Assembly (NCBI GenBank): GCA_022760475.1
Contig: JALEFZ010000055.1
Location: forward strand, 310,001-374,000
Reading direction: 5' to 3'
Source of the DNA: Bacteroidia bacterium
Lineage (GTDB): Bacteria > Bacteroidota > Bacteroidia > J057
Length of the DNA: 64,000 nt
This document shows positions 17,291-25,783 of this stretch, one piece after another. Each line of letters starts with the position of its first letter. Within the stretch, counting starts at the first letter, position 1. The position numbers were made by a program, and so were the translations under genes. Below the pieces are notes generated by a model, which saw nothing but the letters and a program-made list of their open reading frames with translations, was not told where the DNA came from and searched no databases.

Positions 17291-17316
17291 GCGGGCTCCA
17301 GCAGGGCCCGCTTTTT
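17291..17316 (+). terminator. Rho-independent terminator after the SRAP-like gene
   Basis: GCGGGC and GCCCGC arms with an intervening loop are followed by TTTTT. It lies 87 bp past the SRAP-like stop codon. Confidence 0.7.
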
Positions 17317-17434: not shown

Positions 17435-18550
17435 ATGAAGGATGTAGCTGTAATAGGAGGTGGATTGGCAGGCTTAATCAATGCCATAGTCTTAAGTAGA
17501 AATAAGCTGGATGTAATCTTATTTGAAAAGAAATCATATCCATTCCATAGGGTATGTGGAGAGTACATTTCCAACGAAGTTATCCCATTCCTAAAGAGCC
17601 TTGACCTCTTTCCTGAGGAATTTGGCCCTTCCAGGGTAAGCCAGTTCCAGTTAACTTCAGTTTCTGGGAAAGAAATGAACATGCCACTGGATTTAGGAGC
17701 TTTTGGACTTAGTAGATATGCTTTTGATTTTTTTCTTTATAAAAAAGCGCTAGAGGCTGGAGTTGATATAAGGCAGAATACAAGGGTAGAGAAGATTGAT
17801 TTTAAGGATGATCATTTCGAACTGGAAAGTACAGGGAAGGAAAAGCACAACTGCAGGATTGCAGTAGGGTCTTTTGGCAAAAGGTCTAAACTTGACAAAT
17901 ACCTTGAAAGGAACTTCATCCAAAAGAGATCTCCTTATGTGGGCATCAAATATCATGCAAGGACAGATCACCCAGCAGATCTCATTGCCTTACACAACTT
18001 TGAAGGGGGTTATTGTGGAATCAGCCATGTAGAGAATGAGGTTTCGAACATTTGTTACCTTACTGAGCGAGATAAAGTAAAGAAGTTCGGAAACATTGAG
18101 ACCTTCCAAGCTGAGGTTCTTTTCAAGAATCCAAAACTGAAAAGCATTTTTGAAAATGCAGACTTTCTCTTTGAGAAGCCCTTGGTAATCAATGAAATCT
18201 CTTTTGAAACAAAAGGCCCAGTGGAAGATCACATCCTGATGTGTGGAGATGCCGCTGGAATGATTGCCCCACTATGTGGAAATGGGATGGCTATGGCAAT
18301 CCACGCTGCAAAAATATGTTCTGAGACCATTCTTGAATTTCACTCGGCTGATATGGAAGATCGTCATTTGATGGAGCGGGCTTATGCAAAGAAATGGCAA
18401 AAGCTATTTTCAAGACGCTTGAGTACAGGGAGAAATGTCCAGAAACTGTTTGGCAATAAGCTTATTTCAAATGTTGCCGTAAATACTGTGAGAAGGGTAC
18501 CCCCTTTGGCAAAAGCGGTTATGAAACAAACACATGGAGAGTATTTTTAG
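17435..18550 (+). CDS. FAD-dependent oxidoreductase of the type III PKS locus (geranylgeranyl-reductase/monooxygenase-like)
   Basis: 371 residues. A Rossmann FAD motif (VIGGGLAGL) opens the protein at residue 6, with a FEKKSYPFHRVCGEYIS segment typical of geranylgeranyl-reductase-like flavoproteins; the second FAD motif is MCGDAAGMIAPLCGNGM at about residue 268. Cytoplasmic, possibly membrane-associated at its C-terminus. In the streptomycete srsABC locus a flavoprotein hydroxylates alkylresorcinols made by a type III PKS; the neighbours here (PKS, methyltransferase, UbiA) suggest an equivalent tailoring role, as an inference. Its stop overlaps the convergent UbiA gene by four bases. Reductase and hydroxylase functions cannot be separated by eye. 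Confidence 0.85.
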   Translation: MKDVAVIGGGLAGLINAIVLSRNKLDVILFEKKSYPFHRVCGEYISNEVIPFLKSLDLFPEEFGPSRVSQFQLTSVSGKEMNMPLDLGAFGLSRYAFDFFLYKKALEAGVDIRQNTRVEKIDFKDDHFELESTGKEKHNCRIAVGSFGKRSKLDKYLERNFIQKRSPYVGIKYHARTDHPADLIALHNFEGGYCGISHVENEVSNICYLTERDKVKKFGNIETFQAEVLFKNPKLKSIFENADFLFEKPLVINEISFETKGPVEDHILMCGDAAGMIAPLCGNGMAMAIHAAKICSETILEFHSADMEDRHLMERAYAKKWQKLFSRRLSTGRNVQKLFGNKLISNVAVNTVRRVPPLAKAVMKQTHGEYF

Positions 18551-19410
18551 ATAAAAAAAAGACTTATAAAAAATACATTCAAACAAAGAGAAGAGAGGAG
18601 ATTCAGGTTCATGGTATTTCTGAAATTTGCCTCTTTTTCATCCTTCCATACCTTCGATCGCCAATAAAGAAAGTATCCTAGTACCGGCCCCATGACAAGC
18701 AGATAAGTAATTGCTGCTGTCAAGCCGTGGAAAAAATAGAAATAGGCTACAAAGCCAATGGCGGAAAGCGAAAACATGGCCATGGTGAATGTAAATGTGC
18801 CCTTGATACCAAGTTTTAGGCTCAGGGTGATGTCACCTCTTTTGGAATCTTCCTCATGTTGGTAAATCTGTGTCATGGGATAAGAACCCCAAAGCATGGC
18901 AGAGGATAAAAAGGCAGGAATCCAGATTTCCTGCTTTAGAATAATTTCAAAGGATTCAAGTTCAAGTCCCATTATGCTCATCCAGAATGTGAAAAAGCCT
19001 TGAAAAAAGCCTGCGATGAACCAACTTCCATAGGGGAATTTTTTGATTCGGACAGTTGGGTGAGAATATGCTTTTGAGACCATGCCATAAATGAAAAGCA
19101 TGATTGTAAACTGCCAGGAAATCAGCATTCCTAGTAAGAGCGCGACAGCATCAAACAAAAGAGATAGGTAATATAAACCCTTACTTACTGGTGGGGGCTT
19201 TTCCAGTCCACCAATGCTATCCTCGTCCTTATCGAAATAGCTATTGTAGCCATTACTCGCTGGATAGAGAAAAATATGTATGATAACAAATACAAGTATG
19301 GATCTGTTAAGATCGAAGTTGGAGGCCACAGCGAAGGCAAAAAGAAAAACCGGGGCCAGAAAAAAGGAGAATGGAATCCTGAGATGGAGCCAGGACGATT
19401 TCTTGAGCAT
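18547..19410 (-). CDS. UbiA-family prenyltransferase
   Basis: About 288 residues. The frame is open to 19506, but that start overlaps the divergent PKS gene; ATG 19410 (MLKKSSWLHLRIPFSFFL) matches the usual family N-terminus and leaves an 82-bp divergent promoter gap (ATG 19470 is an alternative). Around eight hydrophobic helices are visible. The two Asp-rich prenyl-diphosphate/Mg motifs are present: NGYNSYFDKDED and YQHEEDSKRGD. UbiA enzymes join a polyprenyl chain to an aromatic ring in the membrane. Placed between a flavoprotein and a type III PKS, it probably prenylates the PKS-derived phenol; menaquinone synthesis is less likely because no men genes are near. Confidence 0.87.
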   Translation of the reverse strand: MLKKSSWLHLRIPFSFFLAPVFLFAFAVASNFDLNRSILVFVIIHIFLYPASNGYNSYFDKDEDSIGGLEKPPPVSKGLYYLSLLFDAVALLLGMLISWQFTIMLFIYGMVSKAYSHPTVRIKKFPYGSWFIAGFFQGFFTFWMSIMGLELESFEIILKQEIWIPAFLSSAMLWGSYPMTQIYQHEEDSKRGDITLSLKLGIKGTFTFTMAMFSLSAIGFVAYFYFFHGLTAAITYLLVMGPVLGYFLYWRSKVWKDEKEANFRNTMNLNLLSSLCLNVFFISLFFI

Positions 19411-19492
19411 GGCGATTGATTTGGGGGAAGATAGGTAAAAAAGCAGATTAGAAGGCTTATATTTCGACATTAAGCGAGCAATTTCACCATTA

Positions 19493-20590
19493 ATGGCATA
19501 TATCAATGCAGTCGGGACTTCGGTTCCAGGAAAAAAGATCCCTCAGGAAAGGATTTTTCAGTTTATGCAAAAGGCTCATGGATTGGACCAGTTAGAAGCC
19601 AGAAAGCTAAGGGTACTCTACCGGGCAACGGGCATCAGCACCCGTCATTCTGTCATCCAGGACTATGAACGAGACAATGATTTTGAGTTTTTCCCAAATT
19701 CCGAAAACTTGGAGCCTTTTCCTTCAACCTCGGACAGGATGAAGGTTTACCAAAAGGAGGCTAAAAAACTCAGCCTTGAAGCGATTCGAAAAATTAAATC
19801 ATTCAATCCAGAGGAAATTACCCACCTGATCACAGTAAGCTGTACAGGTATGTATGCCCCTGGCCTTGACATTGACCTGACGAATGAATTGGGTATCCGG
19901 AAGGATGTTCAACGGACGAATATTTATTTCATGGGATGTCAGGCTGCATTTAATGGCCTTAAAGTCGCCAATGCCATTTGCGAGGCAAATCCTTCTTCGA
20001 AGGTATTGTTGGTCTGCGTGGAACTTTGTACCCTGCATTTCCAGAAGGAAATCACAGATGATTCTCTTTTGGCGAACTCGCTTTTTTCTGACGGTGCAGC
20101 AGCAGCCCTTATTACGGGAGAGCTTCAGGATGGGCTGAACCTTTCTATAGAAGAGTTTGTATGTGCTTTGCATCCTGAGGGAAGGAAGGAAATGGCATGG
20201 AAAATTGGGGACTTCGGGTTTGAGATGAAGCTCAGTGCCTATGTTCCTGATATAATTCGAGGAGGGATCAAAGGGCTGACAGACAAGCTATTGAACTCGT
20301 TGAAAGTTTCTTTTGATAAGGTAAAACACTTTGCGATACATCCAGGAGGAAAAAGAATTTTGAGGTTTGTCGAAGAAGAGTTGGACATTCCTAAAGACAA
20401 AAACCTATCCTCACATAAGGTATTGAGAGATTTTGGGAACATGTCATCTCCTACCATTTTGTTTGTACTCAATGATGTAATCGAAGGTTTGATCCCTCAA
20501 AAAGAGCCTGAATATATCCTGAACTTTGCTTTTGGCCCCGGGCTCACACTTGAGAGCATGTTACTGAAAACCCAATTTATCCATGAATAA
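19493..20590 (+). CDS. type III polyketide synthase
   Basis: 365 residues, thiolase-fold chalcone synthase superfamily. The Cys-His-Asn triad is visible: Cys149 in YFMGCQAAFNGLK, His283 in FAIHPGGKRIL and Asn316 in DFGNMSSPT. The C-terminal GFGPG-like loop appears as FAFGPGLTLESM. These enzymes extend an acyl-CoA with malonyl-CoA and cyclise the chain to resorcinols, phloroglucinols or pyrones; the starter unit here is unknown. It overlaps the methyltransferase gene by eight bases (ATGAATAA), indicating translational coupling, and is divergent from the UbiA gene. The closest functional analogy is the srsA/arsB-type alkylresorcinol synthases (inference). Confidence 0.93.
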   Translation: MAYINAVGTSVPGKKIPQERIFQFMQKAHGLDQLEARKLRVLYRATGISTRHSVIQDYERDNDFEFFPNSENLEPFPSTSDRMKVYQKEAKKLSLEAIRKIKSFNPEEITHLITVSCTGMYAPGLDIDLTNELGIRKDVQRTNIYFMGCQAAFNGLKVANAICEANPSSKVLLVCVELCTLHFQKEITDDSLLANSLFSDGAAAALITGELQDGLNLSIEEFVCALHPEGRKEMAWKIGDFGFEMKLSAYVPDIIRGGIKGLTDKLLNSLKVSFDKVKHFAIHPGGKRILRFVEEELDIPKDKNLSSHKVLRDFGNMSSPTILFVLNDVIEGLIPQKEPEYILNFAFGPGLTLESMLLKTQFIHE

Positions 20591-21290
20591 GCTATTCAAA
20601 TACAGATCTGAGGAGGAAGAGTTGATGGATGACCTGGACTGCTCGGGTGAGGTTGTAGATCAAACTCTACGTGAACTTGAAATCATCAACCGCTTGTTGG
20701 GAGGAAACTATGTTACACTTAGAGGTCTGGATAGCTTATTTAAAAAGCATTCCCTCAAAGGGCAAAAGGTACGGATAGCTGACCTTGGATGTGGAGGTGG
20801 AGATATGTTGGTTCTTGTTGCAAAATGGGCACGAAGGAAGAATCTGTCGGTGGAGTTAATAGGGATTGACGCAAACCCCCATATAATCGCATTTGCAAGG
20901 GAAAATACAGTCGAATATCCTGAAATTACCTATCTCGTCCAGGATATTTTTTCAAAAGAATTCGAAGAAGGAAGCTACGATTTGGTCATAACCTCCTTGT
21001 TTACTCATCATTTTAATGAAGAACAGCTTGTGAATTTATTCTCAAGCATCAAAAAACTTAGTCGATACGGCTTTGTCAATAATGACCTTCATCGCCATTG
21101 GTTTGCTTATTACTCGATAAAAATGCTGACTAGATTTTTTTCCAAGTCTGAAATGGTCAGGTATGATGCCCCACTGTCTGTTTTAAGGGGATTTCGAAAG
21201 GGTGAGTTGGCAGATATTTTGATGCAGGCAGGGATTAAATCATTTAGATTGAGGTGGATGTGGGCTTTTCGATGGCAATTAATTTTCTAA
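20583..21290 (+). CDS. SAM-dependent methyltransferase of the type III PKS locus
   Basis: 235 residues with a class I methyltransferase core: motif I IADLGCGGGDML, an acidic strand end ELIGIDANPHII (ribose-binding Asp), YLVQDIF, and YDLVITSLFTHHF. The N-terminal helices (SEEEELMDDLDCSGE, INRLLGG) are like those of the methyltransferases that accompany Bacteroidota type III PKS genes. Its start codon lies inside the PKS gene. By analogy with srsB, it probably methylates the polyketide phenol, but O- versus C-methylation cannot be told. A strong terminator follows. Confidence 0.88.
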   Translation: MNKLFKYRSEEEELMDDLDCSGEVVDQTLRELEIINRLLGGNYVTLRGLDSLFKKHSLKGQKVRIADLGCGGGDMLVLVAKWARRKNLSVELIGIDANPHIIAFARENTVEYPEITYLVQDIFSKEFEEGSYDLVITSLFTHHFNEEQLVNLFSSIKKLSRYGFVNNDLHRHWFAYYSIKMLTRFFSKSEMVRYDAPLSVLRGFRKGELADILMQAGIKSFRLRWMWAFRWQLIF

Positions 21291-21330
21291 TAAAAAAAGC
21301 CGATGTCCAGGAAGACATCGGCTTTTTCTT
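21291..21330. terminator. bidirectional Rho-independent terminator
   Basis: A perfect 11-bp stem, AAGCCGATGTC with GACATCGGCTT, has A residues on one side and T residues on the other. It serves both the PKS/methyltransferase operon and the convergent large PKD gene. Confidence 0.92.
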
Positions 21331-21343
21331 TGATTAGATTTTC

Positions 21344-24300
21344 TTATCTCAAGACACTAACGTTTCCTTTGATTACCCTATCGCCAACCTTCACGATTAG
21401 GTAATACACTCCTTCTGGAGAATCAGATCCGTTAGACTGTTTTCCATTCCAGGTAGTAGCAGGATCATCAGCAGTGAAAATACTGCGTCCCCATCTATCA
21501 AAGATTTCATATTGCAAGACTGACTTCCCATTGTACTGGATACGGAATTCGTCATTTGTTCCGTCACCATTAGGAGTAAATACGTTAGGAATGACCAGGC
21601 TTGGTTCGATGATCAGGTAAGGACCTCTGGTAACCTGAGCAATACATCCATCTGCATCGGTCAGTGTAAGGGTTACAAAGTATTCACCTGCTTCGGTATA
21701 GATCTTTGAAGGATTTTGAACAGTACTGATGGTACTGTCTCCAAATTGCCAGAACCACTGGACACCTGAGGCAGAAAGGTCTGTAAAGTTCACTCCTGCA
21801 TCCGGAAGAGGGATCTCAGACCCTTCGATTGGATTAGAGCTGAAGTCTACTGAAGGAGTCGTTCCCACTTTTACGGTTACGCTGTTGTTCACATCAGAAC
21901 ATCCATTGTCTCCGGTCGCAGTAAATGTAACATTGTAGGTTCCGGGAGCCGTGTAAGTATGGGTTGGATTGGGAACATTCGTCAATGGTGATCCATCTCC
22001 AAAGTCCCAGATGTATGAGAATGCATTCGAAGCTGTGGAATTAAAGCTCACAGTCAATTCATCACAACCATTGATTTCACTGCTGGTATAGGTAGCTACC
22101 GGAGTAGGAGTTACCTGGATGGCAAAGTCAGCAGTGTCGGTACAAACCCCTTCTGAAATCACTACCTGATAAATGGTGGATTGTGTTGGAGTTGCCGTAA
22201 CTGATTGTGCAGTTGGATTGTTGATATTGGGACCTAACCATTCAAATGAAGCGGCGCCACGGCTACCAAGAGCCCTTAGCCCTACGACATCTCCGCTACA
22301 GATCAGGTTCGTATCAGCTTCTATCACCGCCATTACGGCAGGGTTTACTTCAATCAGGACTTGATCGGTCGTGCTACATCTTCCTGAGAAGGAACTGGCC
22401 GTTACAGTCAGGATGGTTGAGGAAGTAGGAGCAGCAATCACAATGGAATCATCCATGGTGGTAGCGAATGAGCCTACAGGGCCCCATGTATAAGCTGTAG
22501 TGGTATCATTGAAGTTGTAGATATGCGAAGCAACCAATTCTACGCTCTCTCCCTCACAAATGATGGTATCACCTTGAAGTAGATCCACCTGTGGAGTTTG
22601 GAGGACAGTCAGTGTTACTTGTTCAGGCTGCGATAGACAGCCAAACTGAGTCTCAGCCCTTACTGAGTAAGTGGTCGTTCTATCAGGAAATGCCAAAGGA
22701 GTGGTCGAGTTCGAGTCACTCAGGCTATTTGTCGGAGACCATACAAAGGAATATAAGGGTGAATTTGGGTCTCCATTGGCTACGGCACTGATTTGGACTG
22801 TATCTCCTTCGCAGAGATCTCTGTCTACACTTGTATTAACCGTTGGTTCTGTATCTACCTGAACTTTTACGCTATCTGCCCCCTGGCATCCGGCATCAGA
22901 GATTGCAGAAAGGGTGTAAACAGTAGTTATGTTTGGCGATACAAATGGTACCGCTGAGCTTTCATCACTTACATAGCCTGTATTTGTAGGGGTCCAGGTA
23001 TACTGGTAGTTAGGGCCGGAACCCGAAGCAAAGCCTTGCAACTGGATGGTATCTCCGAAACACATACCCGTATCCAGGCCTGCAACAACTGTTGGGTTAG
23101 GTAAAACTGTAACGGTAACTGTCGACAAGGTGTCTAGGGTATTTGCATCACTGGAACAACCATTCGAAAGAGAAGTTGCTGTCAGGGTATAAATAGTGGT
23201 GGTATCAGGTCTTACAAAGGTATTTGGATCATCTGGATCAATGATTGGATCTACAGGCGTCCAAGAGTAAAGGAATGGTCCGGGAGCATTGTTGTCTGCT
23301 GCAAGTCCACCCTGGAGGTTTACCCCAGGTGCTGGCGTAGGACAGATTTCAAAGTCAGGTCCAGCATCTACCTTTGGTTTGGCTTTTACTGTGACTACGA
23401 CTGAATCCAGGTTACTGGAACAGCCGTTAAAGTCTGTTACTTGGAAATAATAAGTTACATCTTCTGTTGGGGTGGTAACAGTTGGGTTTACCCTTGGATC
23501 TTCCACATTGGCACTATCTATTCCACAATTTGGAGCTCGATTACAAGTCCAGGTGTAGAAGTAAGGCATGGTTCCTCCAATTACACTTGCATCAAGGTCT
23601 ACCCCACCGTCTCCTTCACAGAATTCTTTGGCTGCTCCGGCATCTACTTGCGGGCTACCATTTACGACAATGGTTTGGGTAGTTTGTGTTGTACAGTTTC
23701 TGAATACTGTAGTCAAGGAAACTGTTTTGGTTCCCGGTGTAGCGTAATTTACTGTTACAGGGCCTTCCAGAGTCGAAACAGCAGGCGAAGCTGTCGCACC
23801 AAAGTCCCAGAAGAAAATCTGGTTGGGTCGGGCAGTTCCCTGGTAAGTATAAGTAACCTGAGCATTCGAACATGAACTCAAGGTAGAGGCTACAAAGTCT
23901 GCGTTTGGTTCTTCAACTACATCGAAGGTAATGGTTGTGGTATCTCCTGGGCAGCCATTTCTTGTTACAAAGAGGGTAACAAGCTTGGTTCCTGGAGTTT
24001 GGTAACTTACGTTGTGCGGGCCCATGCCTGTAGCAATAGGAGGTGAGGCAGAAGCCCCAAAGTCCCATCTGTAGGTGTCTGCAATTTCACCTTGAGGCTG
24101 GAAGGTAAAGCTATTGCCCATGAAGCATTGATCTCCAACAGGTACGATGCTTGTATTGACTGCATCCTGTACTTCTATGTCATTACACTGAAGGTTTGAG
24201 AAACAGCCACGATCTTCAACCTGAAGGCACAAGGTCTTTGTTCCAGGCGTATTCCAGGCAAAGTTTAGCGGTCCAATGTTTCCATTGGGGAAGGTCTGTT

Positions 24301-25783
24301 GAGGTACAGTCCAGTTGAAGGTTGCAGTTGCAGGAGCATTACCGGTATATGTTACAACAGCTGTCTCATTGAGGCAGGCAGTAGTAGGCGCAACGAAGTT
24401 GGCATTTGGAATTTCGATAACATCGATTGTCTGGCTGTTAATGTTACTGGCACAACCGTCTTCCTCCAATTGAAGTGTGATGGTCTTCGGTCCTGCTGTG
24501 CTCCATTGAACCTGGTAAGGCCCCTGGCCACTACCTGTTACACTGGAAGGGTTTCCGAAATTCCATAGGTAGTTGGCGTTTGTACCACTTGAACCAGTAT
24601 AGGTAATGGTGGCATTAGAACCTGAACAAGAGTTCGCAGGAAGAGAGAAAGTTGCATCAGGAGTTGGCTTTACGATAACCACAACCTGGTCCGTAAAGGT
24701 ACATCCTGCAGGGTCATTTACTTCAACCTGGTAAGTGGTAGAGGTTGCAGGACTCACATTTACTGATGCATCTGTCAAGTTACTAGGTGTCCACAAGTAT
24801 GAGTAGCCTGAGAAGGAACTAAAGTTTGTGGTAATTGAAGTTGCCGATCCCGCACAAATAGTATCAGGAGAAGCGGTCGCAGAAAGTGCTAGTGGAATTG
24901 ATGTGAATGTTCTGGTAACATTTGGTGCTACATTCCCGCAGTTATCTGTGATGCTTCCATTTAGCGTAACATTGTAGGTCGTATTAGATGCGAGTCCTGG
25001 GGAAACTTCAAGGATGAATACATTATCAAAACTACCACCGTTGTCGCAGTTAGGAGAGCGCACCCCAGTCACACCGAAAGGCCCACCAGGACCTGTAACT
25101 GTAAAGTCAGAGGCATCAAGGGAGTCACAAGGAATATTTTCGGAGAAGGTAACTACGATTTCTGCATTGTTACAGCCTTGGCGAGCTGTTTCGAATGAGG
25201 GAGGTCTGTTATCCGTAACTCCTGCTGTAGAGGCGGTGAAGTCTATGGTATATCCACTGGTTGAACCAGTGAAGTTACTAACATTGATTAGGTAGGTTTC
25301 ACCAACCTGAGCATTGATACACTCTTCATTCTGTGCAGCACAAGGGCCAAAGAAGTTTGGGTCGGTACGGCCATTAGGCCCTGTAGCTCCTCCGCAGCCA
25401 CCATTGATGGCGAAGTTACAAGAAACTTCAAGGGCACCATTTAGCCTGATATCCGAGCATGAAGCATTCGTAAGGTTAAACACAGCCCAGTCATAATCAT
25501 CCATTGGGTCAATGGGAGTGATATCAAAGCAGAGCTGGCCTGCTGTTTGAACTGTGAAGATAAACCAGGAAGAATTTATTTCTCCTGTTTGTAGACAAGA
25601 AAGGGCCGGGTTGATTTCATTTGAAACCCCTCCATTGGTAGTAGAACCTACAGTCTGGGTAAAGGTAGTCTGGCAGACAGGAATCGCACCTATACAGTCA
25701 GCTGTACCAACCTGCGCGTAGGCTAAATTACTTCCCAGGAGGAATGATAAAATCCATAGCAGTTGAACGTAGCGGTATTTCAT
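21344..25783 (-). CDS. giant PKD/Ig-like repeat surface protein with gliding-motility-type (type B) C-terminal sorting domain
   Basis: 1479 residues. A signal peptide ends near LAYAQ. The N-terminal about 190 residues form a CBM-like sandwich (CFDITPIDPMDDYDWAVF). After a Big-like segment (VTFSENIPCDSLDASDFTV) there follow many PKD/SprB-like repeats, recognisable from recurring YLWNFG, FFWDFG, PGTKTV and VDAGPDFEICP-type units, and two canonical PKD domains near the end (YIWDFGDGSP, WFWQFGDSTI). The final 85 residues, with IPNVFTPNGDGTNDEF, EIFDRWGRSIF, WNGK and GVYYLIVKV, form a type B T9SS sorting domain. It is probably a surface adhesin or gliding-associated protein. Proteins of this class usually work with a PorP/SprF-type barrel; none is adjacent. 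Confidence 0.93.
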   Translation of the reverse strand: MKYRYVQLLWILSFLLGSNLAYAQVGTADCIGAIPVCQTTFTQTVGSTTNGGVSNEINPALSCLQTGEINSSWFIFTVQTAGQLCFDITPIDPMDDYDWAVFNLTNASCSDIRLNGALEVSCNFAINGGCGGATGPNGRTDPNFFGPCAAQNEECINAQVGETYLINVSNFTGSTSGYTIDFTASTAGVTDNRPPSFETARQGCNNAEIVVTFSENIPCDSLDASDFTVTGPGGPFGVTGVRSPNCDNGGSFDNVFILEVSPGLASNTTYNVTLNGSITDNCGNVAPNVTRTFTSIPLALSATASPDTICAGSATSITTNFSSFSGYSYLWTPSNLTDASVNVSPATSTTYQVEVNDPAGCTFTDQVVVIVKPTPDATFSLPANSCSGSNATITYTGSSGTNANYLWNFGNPSSVTGSGQGPYQVQWSTAGPKTITLQLEEDGCASNINSQTIDVIEIPNANFVAPTTACLNETAVVTYTGNAPATATFNWTVPQQTFPNGNIGPLNFAWNTPGTKTLCLQVEDRGCFSNLQCNDIEVQDAVNTSIVPVGDQCFMGNSFTFQPQGEIADTYRWDFGASASPPIATGMGPHNVSYQTPGTKLVTLFVTRNGCPGDTTTITFDVVEEPNADFVASTLSSCSNAQVTYTYQGTARPNQIFFWDFGATASPAVSTLEGPVTVNYATPGTKTVSLTTVFRNCTTQTTQTIVVNGSPQVDAGAAKEFCEGDGGVDLDASVIGGTMPYFYTWTCNRAPNCGIDSANVEDPRVNPTVTTPTEDVTYYFQVTDFNGCSSNLDSVVVTVKAKPKVDAGPDFEICPTPAPGVNLQGGLAADNNAPGPFLYSWTPVDPIIDPDDPNTFVRPDTTTIYTLTATSLSNGCSSDANTLDTLSTVTVTVLPNPTVVAGLDTGMCFGDTIQLQGFASGSGPNYQYTWTPTNTGYVSDESSAVPFVSPNITTVYTLSAISDAGCQGADSVKVQVDTEPTVNTSVDRDLCEGDTVQISAVANGDPNSPLYSFVWSPTNSLSDSNSTTPLAFPDRTTTYSVRAETQFGCLSQPEQVTLTVLQTPQVDLLQGDTIICEGESVELVASHIYNFNDTTTAYTWGPVGSFATTMDDSIVIAAPTSSTILTVTASSFSGRCSTTDQVLIEVNPAVMAVIEADTNLICSGDVVGLRALGSRGAASFEWLGPNINNPTAQSVTATPTQSTIYQVVISEGVCTDTADFAIQVTPTPVATYTSSEINGCDELTVSFNSTASNAFSYIWDFGDGSPLTNVPNPTHTYTAPGTYNVTFTATGDNGCSDVNNSVTVKVGTTPSVDFSSNPIEGSEIPLPDAGVNFTDLSASGVQWFWQFGDSTISTVQNPSKIYTEAGEYFVTLTLTDADGCIAQVTRGPYLIIEPSLVIPNVFTPNGDGTNDEFRIQYNGKSVLQYEIFDRWGRSIFTADDPATTWNGKQSNGSDSPEGVYYLIVKVGDRVIKGNVSVLR

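Follow-up and report, generated by a model that had tools for sequence, protein, structure and literature searches.

In the three-gene logic of srsABC, the methyltransferase SrsB is a membrane enzyme outside the class I S-adenosylmethionine (SAM)-dependent family, and we know of no UbiA prenyltransferase in srsABC. Plant cannabinoid-type pathways combine a type III polyketide synthase (PKS) with a UbiA prenyltransferase. Here we compare these and other described systems with a cassette of four genes, encoding a flavoprotein, a UbiA-superfamily protein, a type III PKS and a methyltransferase, at positions 17435-21290 of a 64,000-nucleotide stretch of DNA from a Bacteroidia bacterium (GenBank assembly GCA_022760475.1, contig JALEFZ010000055.1, positions 310,001 to 374,000 of the forward strand), which as a whole is called the window below. 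The gene set is real and conserved, and membership of the UbiA protein in the pathway of this PKS is well supported.

The literature on such systems is cited here from excerpts of the papers. In Streptomyces griseus, alkylresorcinols made by the type III PKS of srsABC are oxidised to alkylquinones (PMC10896814), and plant cannabinoid-type pathways yield prenylated polyketides (PMC8309193), although in unrelated organisms and with unrelated tailoring enzymes. Like the window, the hidABC/hierridin-type operons of cyanobacteria and Planctomycetota hold a PKS, a methyltransferase and a flavin adenine dinucleotide (FAD)-dependent oxidoreductase in one unit, the methyltransferase being a class I SAM enzyme and the flavoprotein of the geranylgeranyl-reductase type (PMC10896814, PMC8086630); the excerpts describe no UbiA in these operons, one Raphidiopsis cluster with a prenyltransferase excepted (PMC8086630). 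In cyanobacteria, hidABC gives rise to hierridins (PMC8086630). The PKSs of planctomycete three-gene operons make pentadecyl- and heptadecylresorcinols, and the methyltransferase and flavoprotein of Gimesia maris bring about a single methylation, probably on carbon (PMC10896814). A prenylated version already has a precedent in agqABCD of Actinoplanes missouriensis, where PKS-made alkylresorcinols are prenylated and hydroxylated (PMC10896814), agqB-D accompany agqA (PMC7692728) and a membrane protein akin to the quinone prenyltransferases attaches the prenyl group to oxygen (PMC4044012). This actinobacterial system shares the four-step logic proposed below, a likeness drawn from published descriptions only. 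The Micromonospora losA locus, with UbiA, methyltransferase, acyl-CoA dehydrogenase and PKS genes as neighbours (PMC7587189 Table 1), may be agq-like, although its oxidoreductase belongs to another family than that of the window.

The window is part of contig 13 in a 6.86-Mb host genome whose completeness is given as 100%. Sequence and Pfam matches place the following genes in the cassette:

17435..18550, plus strand: FAD-dependent oxidoreductase (the flavoprotein) of the geranylgeranyl-reductase superfamily (Pfam), a putative ring hydroxylase
18547..19470, minus strand: predicted UbiA-superfamily membrane prenyltransferase of a separate subfamily (PF01040, AlphaFold model)
19493..20590, plus strand: type III PKS with both Chal_sti_synt domains and the triad Cys149/His283/Asn316
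20583..21290, plus strand: class I SAM-dependent methyltransferase (Methyltransf_25)

A preliminary description of the window had reported this triad, an overlap of the PKS and methyltransferase genes, and a flavoprotein and an intact UbiA beside them. The three residues stand exactly at those positions, the overlap amounts to 8 bases, and the coordinates of the locus are correct, the UbiA reading frame being free of internal stops. The same description had likened PKS, methyltransferase and flavoprotein to the srsABC logic. What stands of this is that the three genes form a recurrent unit; the operon for which homology was found resembles hidABC rather than srsABC. The sequence comparison with the hidABC type was made on a plasmid triad of Paludisphaera arranged in the gene order published for that type, which is homologous to the window (identities of 37% for the PKS, 27% for the methyltransferase and 26% for the flavoprotein), and the window differs in that a UbiA gene splits its three-gene unit. 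Its methyltransferase is a class I SAM enzyme and not of the SrsB type: Methyltransf_25 scores 54.1 bits against a cut-off of 27, all seven Pfam families that match are class I SAM methyltransferase types, and PRK06202 reaches 157 bits, under its cut-off of 243.

We took the best 80 of 584 confirmed PKS relatives as the set of closest loci, some of whose stretches end at contig ends. These 80 closest nameable relatives all belong to Bacteroidota, with Hymenobacter, Pontibacter, Rufibacter, Fulvivirga and Chryseolinea among the carriers. Within 7.5 kb of the PKS, a methyltransferase is found in 75 of the 80 loci, a flavoprotein in 69 and a UbiA in 32. Protein identity of the set members beside the PKS is 44-64% in the closest loci and 34-56% in more distant ones, and because the genes recur beside the PKS in both, the set exceeds what chance would give. 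The four genes are grouped in relatives in several orders and orientations, and in seven genomes they all lie on one strand (L217, L219, L221-L224 (f42) and L226 (f49)). One genome carries a second, degraded copy of the set (L027/L032, G050:C57), in which the PKS is reduced to 193 amino acids with the middle part holding Cys and His gone, the methyltransferase is present, the flavoprotein is matched in two pieces and the UbiA is split in two.

The link between UbiA and PKS extends beyond adjacency. We scanned 395 genomes of the phylum, including that of the window, with a profile built from 16 UbiA proteins, and an equal sample with a PKS profile, scoring only the best six UbiA and best five PKS candidates per genome; the two samples are taken as identical since their handles agree. 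UbiA occurs at E<=1e-79 in 26 of the 395 genomes, every one of which holds the PKS clade of the window at E<=1.4e-126, a cut that is sharp within the class (1.4e-126 versus 6e-69) and not across the phylum. The two genes adjoin in 20 of the 26 and lie apart in six (G201, G441, G127, G221, G245 and G213). Within the class, 60 genomes contain a type III PKS: all 23 with the PKS clade of the window have UbiA, whereas none of the 37 with other type III PKSs (best E 6e-69) gave a UbiA match at E<=1e-12. Across the phylum outside family f65, likewise, other type III PKSs occur in 110 genomes, and in none of these was a UbiA match found. In two genomes of family f59, UbiA was matched weakly (about 1e-13) and the PKS not at all at 1e-20. 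The window's own family divides in the same way, with UbiA in G001 and G012 and none in G002, G005 and G007 (PKS identity 31-33%); G059, of another family, has an unlinked UbiA, and G048, a clade-B genome (see below), has none.

In a separation test we searched the genomes of 30 of the 80 loci, 23 of these 30 being without UbiA around the PKS (mostly Pontibacter, Hymenobacter, Rufibacter and Adhaeribacter; the L058 stretch ends 0.6 kb upstream of its PKS). UbiA was found in all 30 and hence in all 23 that lack it near the PKS. Together with the co-occurrence counts this result rejects a chance neighbourhood and bears out the earlier suggestion that UbiA belongs with the unit. In three Hymenobacter-like loci (L162, L163 and L164, of genomes G441, G127 and G221) the neighbour of the unlinked UbiA is a conserved gene, and the two copies tested score weakly as methyltransferases; judging by its sequence, this gene possibly encodes a further tailoring enzyme. 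In family f65 (L168-L171, L173 and L174) UbiA stands beside a conserved gene of about 300 amino acids, with no Pfam match in the two copies tested.

We then asked which partner UbiA follows, using quick, unrooted trees of PKS and flavoprotein computed without bootstraps. In the PKS tree (where L005 and L120 are unlabelled and L011, L013, L015 and the broken PKS of L027/L032 are absent), 40 rows form one set with a Shimodaira-Hasegawa-like approximate likelihood ratio (SH-aLRT) support of 98. It consists of 38 UbiA-positive members, L005, whose genome was found UbiA-positive on later search, and the PKS of a Psychrobacter plasmid. Clade B, of four genomes, and five other PKSs of UbiA-less genomes lie beyond a branch of 99, while the PKSs of L203/L204 fall on the window's side. 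In three clade-B loci (L194, L196 and L012) the flavoproteins, at 307-479 bits, and the methyltransferases, at 276-324 bits, belong to the window's subfamilies, and no UbiA match was found in the genomes of these three; L014 scores weaker. The flavoprotein tree joins clade A, that of the window, and clade B against L203/L204 (100); the methyltransferase tree also sets L203/L204 apart (100) but resolves the rest poorly, the branch of L014 being very long. Because clade B keeps the tailoring subfamilies without UbiA, UbiA tracks the kind of PKS and not the tailoring enzymes. From these sequences it appears that the PKS was exchanged, the tailoring pair was retained and UbiA followed the PKS, and the simplest reading is that the UbiA acceptor depends on the polyketide.

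The Psychrobacter PKS (L120:4989-7812, NZ_CP012711.1, plasmid 5 of Psychrobacter urativorans) lies inside the Bacteroidota UbiA-linked clade at 45% identity. Its neighbours are a flavoprotein (24%), a methyltransferase (27%) and, within 5 kb, a recombinase gene and one related to IS630, and the presence of this PKS set on a gammaproteobacterial plasmid probably reflects horizontal transfer.

Taken together, we think it likelier than any other outcome, though well short of settled, that the four genes constitute one pathway to a prenylated phenolic lipid. Because of the planctomycete, hidABC and agq precedents, we propose an alkylresorcinol that is oxidised, methylated and prenylated, not necessarily in this order. 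By analogy with its family, the PKS would load a fatty acyl starter on Cys149, extend it with malonyl units and cyclise it to an alkylresorcinol-type phenol. The flavoprotein may add a ring oxygen and the methyltransferase an O- or C-methyl group. The membrane-bound UbiA would prenylate the phenol or hydroquinone with a prenyl diphosphate as donor, the diphosphate presumably being held via Mg2+ by the invariant D80/D82/D208 and by R141/K143. In many Bacteroidota the four genes, adjoining or at least in the same genome, thus probably make an oily phenol with an isoprenoid tail.

Several observations weigh against this pathway or against so strict a pairing. Shared descent inflates the co-occurrence counts. 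The set is not complete everywhere: all four genes lie within 4.6 kb in 14 of 23 further clade-A contexts, the seven one-strand genomes being among these 14 (the PKS reading frame of L213, L214 and L227 was missed in the context reading, though present in the PKS tree), and the clade-A loci L005 and L176 lack the other three genes nearby. UbiA is interrupted in two of the 30 separation-test genomes, by one in-frame TGA and by a split in two, and three of the 26 phylum matches cross a stop codon. Of the 45 PKS genomes in family f65, 34 have a diverged UbiA (E 1e-32 to 1e-45) and 11 do without, although all 34 f65 genomes with this UbiA hold a PKS; UbiA and PKS are unlinked in the two genomes read at both regions (G120 and G098), and the one PKS partner flavoprotein tested is of another, UbiH/rifampin-monooxygenase-like type. 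The Psychrobacter plasmid has a PKS of the UbiA-linked clade and no UbiA in 11 kb, its chromosome not having been searched. On the side of chemistry, no product is known from any member found, and the role of the G. maris flavoprotein was left open by its authors in the excerpt (PMC10896814). The cassette has no prenyl diphosphate synthase; the genome has two (PF00348), one of which shares the contig at a distance of about 50 kb. Finally, the canonical NDxxDxxxD is replaced in UbiA by N-S-x-x-D-x-D-E, and because this first Asp motif is non-canonical, the activity of the enzyme is uncertain.

With regard to the polyketide, the PKS might make alkylpyrones or another non-resorcinol product, an alternative to which we give a minor but real chance. 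Both of its domains (PF00195 and PF02797, Chal_sti_synt) exceed the Pfam cut-off, and Cys149, His283 and Asn316 are invariant in a 7-row alignment, but how the chain is cyclised cannot be read from the sequence. All NCBIfam equivalogs stay under their cut-offs (DpgA scores 144 of 425 bits), and the closest solved structures are diverse in name, with Steely1 (2h84, E 6e-50) as the nearest relative by sequence and alkyldiketide-CoA synthase, pks18 and 2-pyrone synthase as the others. Against this, the excerpt on planctomycete PKSs of the homologous operon type reports alkylresorcinols (PMC10896814), and a ring hydroxylase and a UbiA acceptor would suit a phenol better.

The flavoprotein, rather than hydroxylating the ring, could reduce the prenyl chain for the UbiA step. 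It exceeds the Pfam cut-off for FAD_binding_3 and DAO, and its top NCBIfam model is the geranylgeranyl reductase family TIGR02032, at 101 bits under a cut-off of 158.8; the product of the Actinoplanes precedent, named alkyl-O-dihydrogeranyl-methoxyhydroquinone in a title cited in the excerpts (PMC10896814, PMC7692728), moreover has a dihydrogeranyl group. We nevertheless regard this role as unlikely, as the same subfamily stands beside clade-B PKSs in genomes without a match to this UbiA, which rejects a flavoprotein that is a partner of UbiA only, and the Paludisphaera PKS has a TIGR02032-type flavoprotein with no UbiA among the 9 annotated genes in 11 kb.

The unusual motifs of UbiA also raise the question of whether the protein has changed function, for example to that of a terpene cyclase or to another diphosphate chemistry. 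The sequence of motif 1 is N-S-x-x-D-x-D-E-x-x-I-G-G, and that of motif 2 is Q-x-Y-Q-H-x-x-D, with Q201, Q204, H205 and D208 invariant where an Asp pair would stand. Position +8 of motif 1 is unconserved in sets of 31 and of 16 sequences (K in 22 of the 31, D in the window alone). Two aligned f65 proteins carry N-S-x-x-D-K-D-E. N76, D80, D82, R141, K143 and D208, however, are invariant in both sets, and NDxxDxxxD is typical rather than defining, as in our alignment E. coli MenA and CyoE deviate as well. The fold is also kept: PF01040 scores 73.8 bits (cut-off 34.2) over residues 51-303 of 319, and the AlphaFold model (mean predicted local distance difference test score, pLDDT, 89.6) matches 4tq4, a UbiA homolog with dimethylallyl diphosphate and Mg2+, with Z 22.8 and a root-mean-square deviation (rmsd) of 3.4 over 269 residues, and 4od5 with Z 22.5 and rmsd 2.9, soluble prenyl synthases resembling it less. 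A change of function is therefore rather improbable. The UbiA profile found no match among Protein Data Bank (PDB) sequences at E 0.01, nor did UbiA in a plasmid collection at E 1e-5.

Six NCBIfam models of the MenA/UbiA/MqnP/CyoE kind matched this UbiA, none near its cut-off. The host genome has seven UbiA-family matches, two of which exceed a cut-off: an MqnP/UbiA-like paralog, named on model score (283 bits for TIGR01475 against a cut-off of 181), and heme O synthase (246 bits for TIGR01473 against 210). A tree places the window's UbiA apart from E. coli UbiA, MenA and CyoE and from its own paralogs (93/92), a separation weakened by the very long reference branches. The grouping with MenA/UbiA that the preliminary description had named as evidence to the contrary is not seen. 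That UbiA serves quinone, heme or archaeal-type lipid synthesis and stands here by chance is accordingly most improbable, even though well-known UbiA enzymes belong to primary metabolism and the gene, converging with the flavoprotein gene and diverging from the PKS gene, is co-transcribed with neither: model scores and paralogs reject a quinone or heme enzyme, and its presence tracks the PKS clade even where unlinked. Two other UbiA-family genes of the host stand in contexts of their own. One encodes a 580-amino-acid fusion of a gamma-butyrobetaine-dioxygenase-like and a UbiA-family domain (L038:637-2379, G000:C60), and the other lies, as judged by eye, between HMG-CoA-reductase-like and PEP-synthase-like genes (L039:83-2807, G000:C9).

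The cassette is accompanied by further features:

17291..17311, plus strand: terminator-like hairpin upstream of the cassette (consensus match only)
19471..19492, no strand: 22-base gap from which the UbiA and PKS start codons diverge (sequence)
21294..21327, plus strand: terminator-like hairpin of 14 pairs directly 3' of the methyltransferase gene (consensus match only)

The region has 7 terminator-like sites where shuffled sequence has 3.8 (sd 2.4), a modest excess only. The convergent flavoprotein and UbiA genes overlap by 4 bases counting stops. For UbiA, the ATG at 19470 seems a likelier start than the TTG at 19506 of the open reading frame list. The Bacteroidota-type promoter motif TAnnTTTG is absent from both strands of 19300-19700. 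Next to the cassette, 21344-25783 on the minus strand encodes a 1479-amino-acid surface protein in which PKD-like repeats and a sorting-type C-terminus are discernible by eye.

Among the titles and abstract openings surveyed, which mostly lie outside subscription journals and preprints, no description of this gene set in Bacteroidota was found. As a speculative extension, we tentatively entertain a widespread Bacteroidota pathway whose product, an alkyl-hydroquinone or -quinone with a prenyl group, would exist alongside the respiratory quinone as a second isoprenoid quinone, or a membrane phenol, of polyketide origin. The UbiA subfamily involved would have a metal motif of its own, one methyltransferase-flavoprotein pair being reused with two PKSs and the prenyltransferase kept with only one. 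The strict pairing of UbiA subfamily and PKS clade, even where unlinked, yields a directly testable enzyme-substrate prediction. The findings point to a meroterpenoid lipid family in environmental Bacteroidota and to a so far uncharacterised family of prenyltransferases whose metal motif is unusual.

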